Shown: positions 40,547 through 58,981 of the stretch, piece by piece | Position numbering within the stretch: position 1 is the first letter of the stretch | Layout of the letters: every line of letters starts with the position of its first letter | Origin: Methanolinea sp. | Lineage (GTDB): Archaea; Halobacteriota; Methanomicrobia; Methanomicrobiales; Methanospirillaceae | Reading direction: 5' to 3' | DNA length: 64,000 nt | NCBI GenBank assembly: GCA_024518585.1 | Contig: JANIHI010000003.1 | Coordinates: 62,001-126,000, forward strand | Program-made: the position numbers and the translations under genes | Notes under the pieces: generated by a model | Databases searched by the model: none | The model's input: the letters and a program-made list of their open reading frames with translations, nothing else | Told to the model about the DNA's origin: nothing

Positions 40547-41473
40547 TCACCTCCCCACCGGGTGAATGGCCGCACGTTTTTCATTCCCGACACCCCCGTC
40601 CCGGAGGTCGCGCCCGGTGTAATAGAGAAAGACATCCTCGAGCGAGGGTTTCTTGAGGTTCACGGTCTGGACACGGATCCCGGCACCCTGGAGGTCAGCC
40701 ATGAGGGCCGGGAGGAGGTGTGTGCCGTCTTCCCGGACCATGGCAAGGAGCCCGTGGGCCTTGCCCTGGACACTTTCCACGCCGGGAGCCTTTGAAAGGA
40801 CCTCTCCTGCACGGGTATCGTCACTTGTCTCGAGGTAGATGAGGTCCTGTCCCAGGCGGTTCTTGAGCTCCCAGCCCTCACCTGTCACGATGATTCTCCC
40901 CCTGTCCATGATACTGATCCTGTTGCTCAGCCTGTCGGCCTCGTCCATGTAGTGTGTGGTCAGAACGATCGTCGTCCCTTCCCGGTTGACATTCCTGATG
41001 TAGTCCCAGATCTTCCGCCGGGTCTGGGGGTCAAGCCCGATTGTCGGCTCGTCCAGGAAGAGGATACGGGGCCGTGTCATGAGCCCCCGCGCTATCTCGA
41101 GGCGCCGTTTCATACCGCCCGAGAGGTGTTTTGTCAGGGTATCGGCCCATTCGTCCAGTTCGACGAGGGAGAGGAGCTCGCCTGTCCGGGACTGCCTCTC
41201 CCTCTTATCCATCCTGTAGAGCCTTCCATGGAAGTCGAGGATCTCCCTGCAGGTCATGTCCCGGTCCAGTGTCACCTCCTGGAACACGATCCCGATGGAC
41301 CTGCGGACGCAGGCTGGCTGTGTCGCAAGGTCACAACCGGCAAGTGTCACGTGCCCTTCCTGGAGGGGGAGGAGCGTGGTCAGGACGTTGATGACGGTAC
41401 TCTTGCCCGCACCATTGGGTCCAAGGAGCGAGAAGACCTCCCCATCAACGACGTGGAACGAGACTCCATCCAC
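40547..41473 (-). CDS. ABC exporter ATPase (DrrA-like)
   Basis: Walker A G-P-N-G-A-G-K-S-T, signature L-S-G-G-M-K-R-R-L, Walker B I-L-F-L-D-E-P-T-I-G-L-D and switch T-T-H-Y. A C-terminal 80-residue accessory domain follows, ending in L-K-K-P-S-L-E-D-V-F. Coordinates use the first GTG (308 residues). The frame continues upstream as V-S-G-L-R-H-R-Y-G-D-Y-T-A-V, which is the normal first strand and A-loop Tyr of an ABC ATPase, so the real start is upstream. No ATG/GTG/TTG exists there; candidates are CTG 41539 (with GAGG four bases before), ATA 41530 and ATT 41518. It lies between an Isf gene and its permease. Confidence 0.92.
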   Translation of the reverse strand: MDGVSFHVVDGEVFSLLGPNGAGKSTVINVLTTLLPLQEGHVTLAGCDLATQPACVRRSIGIVFQEVTLDRDMTCREILDFHGRLYRMDKRERQSRTGELLSLVELDEWADTLTKHLSGGMKRRLEIARGLMTRPRILFLDEPTIGLDPQTRRKIWDYIRNVNREGTTIVLTTHYMDEADRLSNRISIMDRGRIIVTGEGWELKNRLGQDLIYLETSDDTRAGEVLSKAPGVESVQGKAHGLLAMVREDGTHLLPALMADLQGAGIRVQTVNLKKPSLEDVFLYYTGRDLRDGGVGNEKRAAIHPVGR

Positions 41474-41571
41474 TGCAGTGTAATCCCCGTACCGGTGGCG
41501 GAGGCCGCTGACGACAATGACAGGGTCTATCTCCTTCAGATATCCTCACACTCCGGTTCCACGTGTTTTCT

Positions 41572-49289: not shown

Positions 49290-50594
49290 ATGATACTCAC
49301 CGAATGGCAAAAACTGGCACTCGTGGCAGCATGCATCTGCATGCTTGCCATTCCCGGGCTGGCAACGACCGTGACGGTCGGTTCCGCCACGGTTCCTGGA
49401 GCAGGGACGACTGTTCCCATCAATGTGACCGCCGACAACTTCCCCAACGGCCTTTCGGGGTACAGCATGAACGTGTCTGTGGCATCTCCTGCCGTTGCAG
49501 AAATAACGGGAGTGACGTTCCCTTCATGGGCGTCATTGAGCATCCATTCCCCCCTCCCATCCGGTGAAGTGTCGGTCCGTGCTTCTGACCTTGCTCAGGC
49601 GGTTGGGCCAGGGGCATCCAATGTTCTCCTGGTGACGGTCACGGTCCGCGGCAAGGCCGCAGGCTCGACACCCATCACCGTGGTGGTAAAAAAGATGGAC
49701 CCGGACGGTGCTGGTGATCCGATCCTCCCCACCATTGTCGCAGGGACGGTCACCGTGGGCGGGACCCCCACACCGACCGCAACACCGACGTCCACACCCA
49801 CACCAACACAGACCGCGACACCGACTGCAACACTGACGTCCACACCCACACCAACACCGACCCCCACGTCAACACCGACCGCGACACCGACTGCAACACC
49901 GACGTCCACACCCACACCAACACCGACCCCCACGTCAACACCGACTGCGACACCGACTGCAACACTGACGTCCACACCCACACCAACACCGACTCCTACG
50001 TCAACACCGACAGTCACTCCCACTCCGACGCCTGTCGACCCGGGGTACATCACTGTCTTTTCCTATCCCCTGGGGGGAACAGTGTACCTCGATGACGTGG
50101 TGATAGGCACAACCCCCCTCCAGGACCGGAGTATCGATCCCGGCACCCACACCCTGGTGGCAAAGTACACCGGCTACCAGGACTACTCAGCAACCATCAC
50201 GGTCAGTCCCGGGCAGCACTTCAAGCTCCCCCTCATCATCTTCTTAAAGGGCCAGCCGACGCGTCCCCCGACGACCATACCGACCATCCCGGTAACGAGT
50301 ACCCCCACACCAACGGCGTCTGGCACCGCCACGACCGCCGTCCCGACGCCAACGGTCACGGGAGGGGGCACGGGGAGTCTGACGGTCAAGACCCTGCCGT
50401 CGGGGGCACTCATTTACCTCGATAACCAGCCGAAAGGAACAACCCCCGCAACGATCTCCAACATCCCCGCCGGGGACCACGAGCTGAAGCTCATCAAGCA
50501 GGGGTATAAGACGAGTGTCCGGACCGTGCGGATACAATCCGGGATAACAACGACACTCCCCCTGATTGTCCTCTCTCCGCAAAGGCTGTTCTGA
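49290..50594 (+). CDS. Secreted protein: cohesin-like domain, Thr-Pro linker, two PEGA domains
   Basis: 434 residues; GGAGG precedes the ATG, nine bases after the previous stop, so the two genes are co-transcribed. Signal peptide about 1-26. Cohesin-like domain about 27-155 ([22 protein letters not shown]), sharing spacing with the module of its neighbour (G-L-S-G-Y ... P-S-W ... P-G-A-T-N-V). A Thr/Pro-rich linker about 160-250 follows, probably glycosylated. Two PEGA domains at about 250-330 and 370-432 each carry P-x-G-x-x-x-Y-L-D. No C-terminal anchor is seen. Likely partner for dockerin-bearing surface proteins. Confidence 0.88.
49787..50032 (+). repeat. 66-bp tandem repeat encoding the Thr-Pro linker
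   Basis: Unit boundaries at GACGTCCACACC: 49787 (48 bp, an 18-bp deleted copy), 49835 (66 bp), 49901 (66 bp), 49967 (partial, diverging). The 66-bp unit encodes 22 residues of alternating Thr/Pro/Ala. Near-identical DNA suggests recent expansion; linker length may vary between strains. Confidence 0.9.
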
Positions 50595-53105: not shown

Positions 53106-53621
53106 GTGACCGGCCATATACGGATAGTCAACGATCCCGTGGACCTCGTGCCCCTTCTCATCACTTTTCACAATGCGACCTACAAGAAGGTCTACGATCT
53201 GTTGACCAGGTCCTGGATGACAGAGGAGGAGCTCTGCTCCCATGTCACCGACGGGGACGTGGGACAGTGCCTCATGGTCCTCAAGAAGGGCAGCCTGGTC
53301 GAAGAGCAATGGAGGATGCCTGGTCCCGGCCAGAAACCTCTGAAGGAATACCGGGCGACCTACAACCGGTTCCGGGCAAATTTCCAGTGCAATTTCAACG
53401 ATCTCTCCGACCTCCTCTTTATCGCCGTCTCCAACGACGAGTACCTCCGGTCCCTGGTCGACAGGGTCGAAGAGGAGCTGCGTGCAGGCAACACGTCCAT
53501 CAATGACATCGCACGCAAGTTCGGGGTCAATCCTGTCTTCATCAAGGGGCTGGCCAAGCGCATCCCCCACCTCGACGTGAAGGGACAGGGGCTGGTTCTC
53601 CTTGACCGAAACACGTACTGA
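53106..53621 (+). CDS. ArsR-like winged-helix regulator
   Basis: 171 residues with GTG start at 53106; A/T-rich ATAATAATAGGG lies just upstream. An N-terminal winged-helix segment (about 15-70: V-Y-D-L-L-T-R-S-W-M-T-E-E-E-L-C) and a C-terminal helical HTH-like part (I-N-D-I-A-R-K-F-G-V-N-P-V-F-I-K-G-L) are visible. Two Cys residues (about 43, 55) could sense metal or redox. Target unknown. It overlaps the next regulator by 20 bases, which in turn overlaps the helicase, so the three form one operon. Confidence 0.78.
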   Translation: MTGHIRIVNDPVDLVPLLITFHNATYKKVYDLLTRSWMTEEELCSHVTDGDVGQCLMVLKKGSLVEEQWRMPGPGQKPLKEYRATYNRFRANFQCNFNDLSDLLFIAVSNDEYLRSLVDRVEEELRAGNTSINDIARKFGVNPVFIKGLAKRIPHLDVKGQGLVLLDRNTY

Positions 53622-54411
53622 CCCGCTCTCCACCCTCCTCCGGAGCAAGAGGGTAATAACCCGGCTGCAGATTCTCGTCGAGATCGCAGAACACCAGCCC
53701 GCCGTCCGCCAGCAGGAAATCGCCCAGAAGATGGGTGTCACGCCCCAGGCGGTATCCGAGTACATCCGGGAGCTGGTCGACGAGGGGATGGTCGCAGCCC
53801 ACGGGAGGGGACGCTATAGCGTGACCCGGAGCGGGATCGAATGGATCCAGTCCCAGGCAGAGACCCTTGAGGCGTATGCCCGCCACATCCGGCGTGACGT
53901 CATCCAGCAGGTCGCGACCTGGACGGCCATCGCGGCAGTTGACCTCCGGGAGGGGGACCAGGTCGGCGTCTACATGAAGGACGGGTTCCTCTATGCCTCC
54001 CGGGAACCGAGAAGCGCCATGGGGACTGTTGTCCGGGACTCCCGGGCAGGCGAGGATGTGGGGGTCACGCGGCTCTCGGGACTGATCGACCATTCAGAGG
54101 GGTGCGTCCGCGTCTGCAAGGTCCCCCGGATCGAGAGGGGTGGTTCCCGCCGAATCCAGAAAGACCGGCTCCGGGACCTCATCCGGGACGTCGGGATGGT
54201 GGCGGCAGTAGGCGTCGAGGGCTACATCGCCTTGGAACAGGTCGGGAGAAAACCGGACATGTTCTTTGGTGCCCGGGAGGGCGTCATCGAGGCGGCGTTC
54301 CACGGGATCTCATCAGCCATCCTCATCGTTGACGAGGAATTTACCGATTTTCTCAAGCGACTGGAGGGTGCCGGGCTTTCCTATACCCTCCACGACCTCA
54401 CCGCCCCATGA
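53602..54411 (+). CDS. MarR/winged-helix regulator with C-terminal sensor-like domain
   Basis: 269 residues, TTG start at 53602 inside the previous gene. N-terminal winged HTH: Q-Q-E-I-A-Q-K-M-G-V-T-P-Q-A-V-S-E-Y-I-R-E-L, followed by a wing G-R-G-R-Y-S-V-T. A roughly 180-residue C-terminal domain of unknown ligand contains V-A-A-V-G-V-E-G-Y-I-A-L and G-A-R-E-G-V-I-E-A-A-F-H-G. Its stop overlaps the helicase start (ATGA). It may autoregulate the operon; no target established. Confidence 0.82.
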   Translation: MTETRTDPLSTLLRSKRVITRLQILVEIAEHQPAVRQQEIAQKMGVTPQAVSEYIRELVDEGMVAAHGRGRYSVTRSGIEWIQSQAETLEAYARHIRRDVIQQVATWTAIAAVDLREGDQVGVYMKDGFLYASREPRSAMGTVVRDSRAGEDVGVTRLSGLIDHSEGCVRVCKVPRIERGGSRRIQKDRLRDLIRDVGMVAAVGVEGYIALEQVGRKPDMFFGAREGVIEAAFHGISSAILIVDEEFTDFLKRLEGAGLSYTLHDLTAP

Positions 54412-56598: not shown

Positions 56599-56607
56599 TT
56601 TATATAA
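56599..56607 (+). promoter_or_regulatory. TATA box for the sensor kinase gene
   Basis: TTTATATAA, close to the archaeal consensus, lies 43-51 bases before the GTG start at 56650. A start site near 56630 would leave a short leader carrying GGTGA (56640-56644). Confidence 0.55.
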
Positions 56608-56649: not shown

Positions 56650-57912
56650 GTGATCTCAGTCCTGACGGTCGATGACGAACCCGCGTTCCTTGAAATAATA
56701 AAGAAGATTCTCGAGCGCTCAGGTCGTATCACCGTTGATACTGCAATATCGGCGCATGAAGGCCTTGAGAAGATTTCAGGGAACAGCTACGACCTGGTTG
56801 TCTCTGACTACCAGATGCCGGCGATGGACGGTATAAAATTTCTCCGCGCACTCCGGGAATCAGCAAAGACCATCCCGTTCATCATTTTCACCGGTAAGGG
56901 ACGCGAGGAGATCGCAGTTCTGGCCTTTGAGAACGGCGCTGATTTCTACCTCCAGAAGGGTGGCGACCTCCGGGCACAGTTTGCGGAACTGGAAAAAAAG
57001 ATCGTCCTGGCCCATGAACTTTACAGGGCGCAGCAATACCGGAAAGAGAACGAGGACAGGCTCCGGCAGGTCATCGATTTCTTACCGGATGCAACCTTTG
57101 CCATCGACAGAGAAGGCCGCGTCATCACGTGGAACCGGGCAATCGAGAAGATGACCGGCATCCCTGCCGGGGATATCCTGGGGAAGGGGAACTACGAGTA
57201 TGCCATCCCGTTCTATAAAGAGCGGCGCCCCATCCTCATCGACCTGGCCCTGCGGAATGACCCGGACATCGGGGAGAAGTATAAATACGTCAGGCAGAAC
57301 GGGGACAGTCTCGTTGCCGAGACATTCATCCCCCACTTCAACGAGGGAAAAGGAATCCATCTCTGGGGGATCGCAACCCTCCTCCACGACTCGGAGGGAA
57401 AAGTCACCGGCGCCATTGAATCCATCCGTGACATAACCGCATGGAAAGTCGCAGAAGAGGAGCTCGTCAGGAGGAACGAGGAACTCCATGCCGCGTATGA
57501 ACAGATTGCGGCGTCCGAGGAGGAACTCAGGCAGAACTTCCGGGAACTGGAGAAAAGCCACAGGAATCTTGAGAGAAGCGAAAGGAGGTTCCGGCAGCTT
57601 TTCGAGGCCATGCACGAGGGACTTGCTCTCCACAGGGTCCTTCGGGATACCGGGGGCCGTGCCGTCGATTACCGCATCCTTGCCGTGAACCGTGCCTACG
57701 AGGAGATCCTCGGGTTGAAACGTGACGCCGTGGTAGGAAAGAGAGCCCGGGAGGTCTACCAGACCGGGGAACCACCGTTCCTTGAGATCTACGCAGGTGT
57801 GGCAGAGTCCGGGAAGCCCACATCATTCCAGGCATTCTTCTCTCCCCTCGCCAAGTATTTCCGGATCTCGGTTTACTCGCCTAGGAAAGACCAATTTGTC
57901 ACAGTTTTTTAA
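56650..57912 (+). CDS. Hybrid sensor kinase, N-terminal part (receiver and two PAS domains), ends at a frameshift
   Basis: 420 residues, GTG start. Receiver domain 1-120 with phospho-acceptor D in V-S-D-Y-Q-M-P (about 51) and conserved Lys in F-T-G-K-G. PAS 1 about 138-255 (I-D-R-E-G-R-V-I-T-W-N-R-A), a coiled coil about 265-310, and PAS 2 about 310-415 ending F-R-I-S-V-Y-S-P-R-K-D-Q-F-V-T-V-F then TAA. Dropping one T from the run at 57905-57910 continues as V-T-V-F-K-D-I-T-D-R and joins the kinase part in the +1 frame. Reads as one about 777-residue protein split by a single-base event. Confidence 0.88.
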   Translation: MISVLTVDDEPAFLEIIKKILERSGRITVDTAISAHEGLEKISGNSYDLVVSDYQMPAMDGIKFLRALRESAKTIPFIIFTGKGREEIAVLAFENGADFYLQKGGDLRAQFAELEKKIVLAHELYRAQQYRKENEDRLRQVIDFLPDATFAIDREGRVITWNRAIEKMTGIPAGDILGKGNYEYAIPFYKERRPILIDLALRNDPDIGEKYKYVRQNGDSLVAETFIPHFNEGKGIHLWGIATLLHDSEGKVTGAIESIRDITAWKVAEEELVRRNEELHAAYEQIAASEEELRQNFRELEKSHRNLERSERRFRQLFEAMHEGLALHRVLRDTGGRAVDYRILAVNRAYEEILGLKRDAVVGKRAREVYQTGEPPFLEIYAGVAESGKPTSFQAFFSPLAKYFRISVYSPRKDQFVTVF

Positions 57913-57914
57913 AG
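57905..57914 (+). other. T6 run with in-frame TAA: slip site or frameshift
   Basis: The sequence GTT-TTT-TAA-AG spans the end of frame one; the next frame needs GTT-TTT-(T)-AAA-GAC. A Phe tRNA on TTT can re-pair one base forward on TTT, as in the bacterial prfB +1 shift, with TAA as the slow codon. It could equally be a mutation or sequencing error in the homopolymer. Confidence 0.6.
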
Positions 57915-58981
57915 ACATAACGGACCGGGTCATCCTAGAGCAGGAACGGGAGAAAGCCGAGGAGAGGCTCCGCGAAGCAATCCACCTTGCACGACTCGGT
58001 TTCTGGGAATGGGACATCGGAAAGGACAAAATCTGGTGGTCACGCGAGCTCTGCGAGATACTTGGCTGGGACCCTGACCAACCTCCGCCGTCCTATAGCG
58101 ACCTTTCCCGGATTTATACCCCCGTAAGCTGGCAGAAGCTTTTTTCGGCCGTCGAGCGGGCAGTCTCGTCCGGTGAACCCTACGACCTGGAACTAGAGGT
58201 TATCCGCCCCGATGGGGAGAGGTTATGGACCCGGGCGACGGGCGGGCCCGTGCGGGATGTCGACAAGACCATCACCGGTCTCCATGGCACGGTGCAGGAC
58301 ATCACGGGGACGAAGAGAGCCGAAAACGCTCTGAAAAAGGCAAACAGGCAGTTAAATCTCCTTGTAAGCATCACCCGGCACGATATCCGGAACAGCGTCA
58401 CGGCAGCCCAGGGGTACCTCGAACTGATGGAGAATGCTGACCCGGGACAGCCAGGATTGGCACGTGAGAGGCTGGGACAGATCCTGGCCCAGATTGCCCG
58501 CCAGATCCAGGCGACAAACGAATGCGAGAGTCTCGGGGAGGAGGAACCCTCCTGGCAGTGCATCGAGGGTCTCCTCGATGGCATCGAGGTCCCCCCGTCA
58601 GTCTCTTTCGTTCGGGACTCCTGCCCGGTCTCGGTCCTTGCCGACCCCGTCCTCCGCCGGGTTTTTGACAACCTCCTCGATAACTCGCTGCGCCATGGCG
58701 GGCCCACGATGGACCGGATCCACGTCTCTTGCGTCATCGACGGGGACGAGCTGGTCATTGCCTGGGAGGACAACGGTTGCGGCATTCCTTTTGAAGAAAA
58801 GGAAAGGATCTTTGACAGCCATTACGGGAGGAACACTGGCCTTGGCCTCTTCCTCGTCCGGGATATCCTGGCCATAACCGGGATGAGCATCCGCGAGACC
58901 GGGGAGCCGGGGAAGGGGGCATGCTTCGAGATCAGGGTGCCTGCCGGCATGTGGCAGAAGAAGGAAGACCTGTCTGGCTAG
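57908..58981 (+). CDS. Hybrid sensor kinase, C-terminal part (PAS and histidine kinase)
   Basis: About 357 residues in the +1 frame after the T6 run; the frame is open from an ATG at 57782 but codes sensibly only from 57908. A third PAS domain is about 20-140 of this part (F-W-E-W-D-I, W-W-S, I-R-P-D-G-E-R-L-W-T-R). The H-box follows in S-I-T-R-H-D-I-R-N-S-V, then the HATPase domain: N-L-L-D-N-S-L-R-H-G (N-box), W-E-D-N-G-C-G-I-P (G1) and G-L-G-L-F-L-V (G2). It forms the catalytic end of the sensor. There is no independent ribosome site; it depends on readthrough or is dead. Confidence 0.88.
   Translation, partial: FKDITDRVILEQEREKAEERLREAIHLARLGFWEWDIGKDKIWWSRELCEILGWDPDQPPPSYSDLSRIYTPVSWQKLFSAVERAVSSGEPYDLELEVIRPDGERLWTRATGGPVRDVDKTITGLHGTVQDITGTKRAENALKKANRQLNLLVSITRHDIRNSVTAAQGYLELMENADPGQPGLARERLGQILAQIARQIQATNECESLGEEEPSWQCIEGLLDGIEVPPSVSFVRDSCPVSVLADPVLRRVFDNLLDNSLRHGGPTMDRIHVSCVIDGDELVIAWEDNGCGIPFEEKERIFDSHYGRNTGLGLFLVRDILAITGMSIRETGEPGKGACFEIRVPAGMWQKKEDLSG

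Follow-up and report, generated by a model that had tools for sequence, protein, structure and literature searches.

Reading frames and domains at the locus

The window analyzed here is a stretch of 64,000 nucleotides (G000:C21:62001-126000) from a 1.78-Mb draft assembly. Genes for an S3Ae ribosomal protein, a RecJ-like protein, an ApgM-like protein and a helicase indicate an archaeal source, presumably a methanogen of the Methanomicrobiales type. Near its end, two reading frames on the forward strand carry the two parts of a sensor kinase. The features of this locus are listed below.

56599..56606, + strand: TATA-box-like TTTATATA, about 45 bases upstream of the start codon (read in the sequence)
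56650..57912, + strand: 5' reading frame, GTG start, 420 aa, ending in TTT TAA (ORF listing and Pfam)
56659-56970, + strand: receiver (Pfam Response_reg, 7e-24)
about 57058-57441, + strand: first PAS domain (Pfam, 5' frame)
from about 57583, + strand: second PAS domain (Pfam, 5' frame)
57883..57898, + strand: AGGA (57883-57886) and in-frame TTG (57896-57898), nearest possible internal start of the second piece
57905..57910, + strand: T6 run holding the extra base (sequence and alignment to the intact orthologue)
57910..57912, + strand: premature TAA stop (read in the sequence)
57911..58981, + strand: 3' reading frame, +1 (Pfam)
about 57962-58303, + strand: third PAS domain (Pfam PAS_3, 3.9e-13, 3' frame)
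58352-58510, + strand: HisKA (Pfam, 5.7e-6, 3' frame)
58652-58945, + strand: HATPase_c (Pfam, 4.5e-20, 3' frame)

The last codons of the 5' frame read GTC ACA GTT TTT TAA, and the +1 frame is open from 57737 until its stop codon at 58979-58981. PAS-type Pfam matches in the 5' frame were PAS_8, PAS_4 and PAS. Receiver, PAS, HisKA and HATPase_c, the domains that define a hybrid receiver-PAS-histidine kinase, were all detected, spread here over two frames. An intact orthologue of 775 aa was identified in another species of the same genus (G007, locus L055, 11722-14049), with its domains in one frame; HisKA was not scored there by Pfam. In a search of the sampled genome, residues 1-420 of this orthologue matched the 5' piece in frame 1 (566 bits, 67% identity) and residues 413-769 matched the 3' piece in the adjacent frame 2 (404 bits, 55% identity). 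Both matches are far above chance, which places the shift at about 57904-57911. In addition, residue 420 (F) of the orthologue is contiguous with the next residue (E in G007, K here), and the shift therefore lies in the T run.

The original prediction had described a single sensor kinase that a one-base shift at TTT-TAA divides; its missing PAS-kinase half continues in the +1 frame, and one T fewer rejoins VTVF to KDITDR. This description held: both ORFs and the orthologue alignment agree with the split, PAS, HisKA and HATPase_c were found at 57911-58978, and the join agrees with the orthologue residue for residue. The frame break in this sequence is thus confirmed.

Gene order is common to both genomes (hypF, HTH, HTH, helicase, kinase, methyltransferase, ApgM-like, S3Ae, RecJ-like). 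Elsewhere in the window, positions 49290-50594 encode a protein of secreted type that carries a long tract of Thr-Pro repeats, and its G007 counterpart has a similar tract and adjoins hypF. Two segments of this protein are presumably PEGA-like.

Two ABC ATPase frames were also noted in this genome. One, of an ABC transporter, on the minus strand of the window at about 40550-41560 (VIVVSGLRHRYGDYTAVDGVSF...), lacks ATG, GTG and TTG near its apparent start and has AAGGAG just upstream of it, and may possibly use a non-standard start codon. The other, at about 8750-8800 of L090 (G000:C12; VPAIEVRNVSYWRGKEQVLNNVSL...), also has no standard start codon in the vicinity of where it apparently begins.

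Conservation of the site and condition of the kinase half

At the position of the break, G007 reads GTC TTT GAG GAC, in frame and free of a T run. A more distant homologue (L045) reads GTT TTT ATG, a natural T5 that is also in frame, which illustrates the way Val-Phe codons give rise to such runs. Neither a stop nor a T6 was present at the site in any aligned homologue (G007, G024 and about ten further), all of which are unbroken and in frame, and order-wide searches found long open frames around it. Comparison of the site in relatives, which had been proposed together with the original prediction, thus revealed intact homologues that lack the T6 and a T6-stop that is not conserved. A scan of the collected genome contigs for relatives yielded only distant bacterial kinases. 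In a pattern scan of viral contigs, the two 18-base matches were chance hits that lacked any similarity beyond them.

A frame broken relative to an intact orthologue, at an unconserved site, is the first sign of a pseudogene created by a recent indel. The other signs, relaxed selection or further lesions, were not found in the kinase half, although a very recent event would not yet have produced them. Differences from G007 were most frequent at third codon positions (0.52, compared with 0.31 at first and 0.27 at second positions); the kinase half has kept its coding character. Relative-rate counts against five outgroups (changes unique to this genome versus unique to G007) were 30:42, 26:36, 25:33, 30:30 and 37:36. 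They revealed no accelerated evolution of the kinase half relative to G007, and relaxed selection on it was not seen. No second lesion was found there. Upstream of the gene, TTTATATA probably acts as a promoter element, and TTTAAATA precedes the start of the G007 orthologue, likewise by about 45 bases. The lack of a rate increase, the lack of a second lesion and the retained TATA-like box together imply that the frameshift arose very recently or is a consensus error.

Origin of the extra base

The explanations below were weighed by judgement rather than by computed values. We favor, with a probability of about one half, a recent and real insertion of a single T, which would make the gene a young pseudogene or a segregating null allele. 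The ancestral state would have been one gene for a receiver-PAS-PAS-PAS-histidine kinase. Ordinary replication slippage could then have added one T where the codons GTT TTT form a run, bringing TAA into frame, so that only a 420-residue receiver-PAS-PAS protein without the kinase would be made. The insertion would be very recent, the extra T would be present in the organism and not merely in the assembly, and full-length protein would presumably not be produced. The break in frame, the homology spanning it, the presence of an intact syntenic orthologue and the lack of further decay are all established. However, the lack of a second lesion or rate increase would be expected equally if the gene is healthy and the consensus sequence is wrong.

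Quite possibly, the extra T is instead such a base-level assembly error and the real gene is intact. This is consistent with a kinase half free of relaxed constraint and second lesions, with retention of the TATA-like box, with a singleton break within a homopolymer and with the draft state of the genome (27 contigs, 96.5% complete). According to PMC3711429, a frame-broken singleton validated by homology is expected to reflect a sequencing error more often than a true indel. On the other hand, indel errors appear to be rare in this assembly. A comparison of 455 kb from this genome against 400 kb of G007 yielded 99 genes with strong, well-covering matches, and the sensor kinase gene was the only true split among them. 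About 650 homopolymers of at least 6 nt lie inside predicted genes of the 455-kb sample. Apart from the kinase, the survey's apparent frame breaks came down to shadow ORFs (some adjoining true genes, others on the opposite strand), one weak match and genes with an unclear start; on these grounds the three other split candidates were dismissed, two as shadow frames adjoining true genes and one as a weak match. A single split in 99 orthologues makes a generally indel-ridden assembly unlikely, and we rejected this possibility. Frame-breaking errors are rare in this assembly, and one per half megabase is compatible with the survey. A recent mutation or an assembly error at the base level is the most likely source of the frameshift, which is ordinary in either case.

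The original prediction had gone further and proposed that the shift could be programmed or phase-variable; unlike the one-base split, this part was not borne out, as the site is unconserved and recoding signals were not found. Programmed +1 ribosomal frameshifting of the prfB type, or RNA polymerase slippage at the T6, would yield some full-length kinase. Several features agree with this: a slippery codon is followed directly by a stop (TTT TAA), Phe-tRNA can pair again with TTT following a +1 slip, the kinase half is still under constraint, and archaeal poly-A recoding exists (fucA1, PMC8211752). Against it, the T6-stop is unconserved among aligned homologues, and the bases just 5' of the shift codon (TTTGTCACAGTT) contain no SD-like stimulator, the nearest AGGA being about 20 bases away. 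TTT is not a rare codon here (14.6 per thousand codons in the sampled genome), the site reads TAAA and A is the base that most often follows TAA (45 of 89 in the sample), and the 80 bases 3' of the site fold no better than shuffled sequences (z +0.56). Slippage also usually requires longer runs: runs of 9 nt are commonly tied to transcriptional slippage and are selected against in many genomes (PMC1088944), whereas only a T6 is present here. Such T runs are common, with 60 T6 runs and 28 longer ones (88 T runs of at least 6) on the coding strands of the 406 predicted genes in the 455-kb sample, and a second T6 occurs in the same kinase gene at 58140, in frame there. The T run at the break is thus unremarkable. 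With upstream SD, downstream fold, codon rarity and stop context all checked and none supportive, we consider programmed recoding or slippage very unlikely. Still slightly less probable is its specific form, in which +1 recoding at UUU-UAA would set the ratio between full-length protein and a receiver-PAS-PAS form that lacks the kinase.

Gene fission is similarly improbable. Here TTG 57896 would serve as the start of a separate PAS-kinase, whose translation would be coupled to termination at 57912 and which would accompany the receiver-PAS-PAS protein. An AGGA lies nine bases upstream of this in-frame TTG, the frame from it overlaps the first frame by 17 bases, and TTG starts do occur in this genome (e.g., the HTH regulator gene at 53602-54411, whose G007 orthologue also begins with TTG). 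However, an SD-like signal of this kind precedes 20% of out-of-frame internal TTGs and just 3 of the 13 TTG starts that are unambiguous, the site is unconserved and no aligned relative is split here; a separate kinase is a weak possibility. Phase variation, in which T-run length would differ between cells and switch the kinase on and off, is the least credible explanation: the lesion lies within a homopolymer and is reversible in principle, but six Ts fall below the minimum of 7 nt for poly-A/T phase variation (PMC3711429), T6 runs are common in genes, and the run is absent from G007.

Comparison with known systems

The locus is best annotated as a single frameshifted hybrid kinase rather than as two genes, and its significance beyond that is small. 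If full-length protein were made despite six Ts in the DNA, this would be an unusual case of +1 recoding in an archaeal cellular gene.

Among recoded genes, prfB (RF2; PMC5009743) resembles the kinase in its slippery codon directly before a stop and in its +1 direction. In contrast to prfB, the T6 site has no SD-like stimulator, is unconserved and is in an archaeal host; the break is mid-gene rather than near codon 26, and the stop is TAA rather than UGA. In a review on archaea, the -1 shift of Sulfolobus fucA1 serves as the main example of cellular frameshifting (PMC8211752); fucA1 is likewise a split archaeal gene at a homopolymer. Its shift is opposite in direction to that in the kinase. 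The fucA1 site is conserved in Sulfolobales and includes a slippery heptamer, with rare codons and a putative stem-loop, and the product of the shift has been detected. Archaeal hybrid receiver-PAS-histidine kinases share the domain order of the present gene, as in the intact syntenic G007 copy (67% and 55% identical by half), and this copy differs in being split by one base. Unconserved singletons with homology and Pfam domains on both sides are assigned to pseudogenes or sequencing errors in the feature table of PMC3711429, and the kinase shows no notable difference from the GeneTack singletons designated there as "hypothetical pseudogene or sequencing error".
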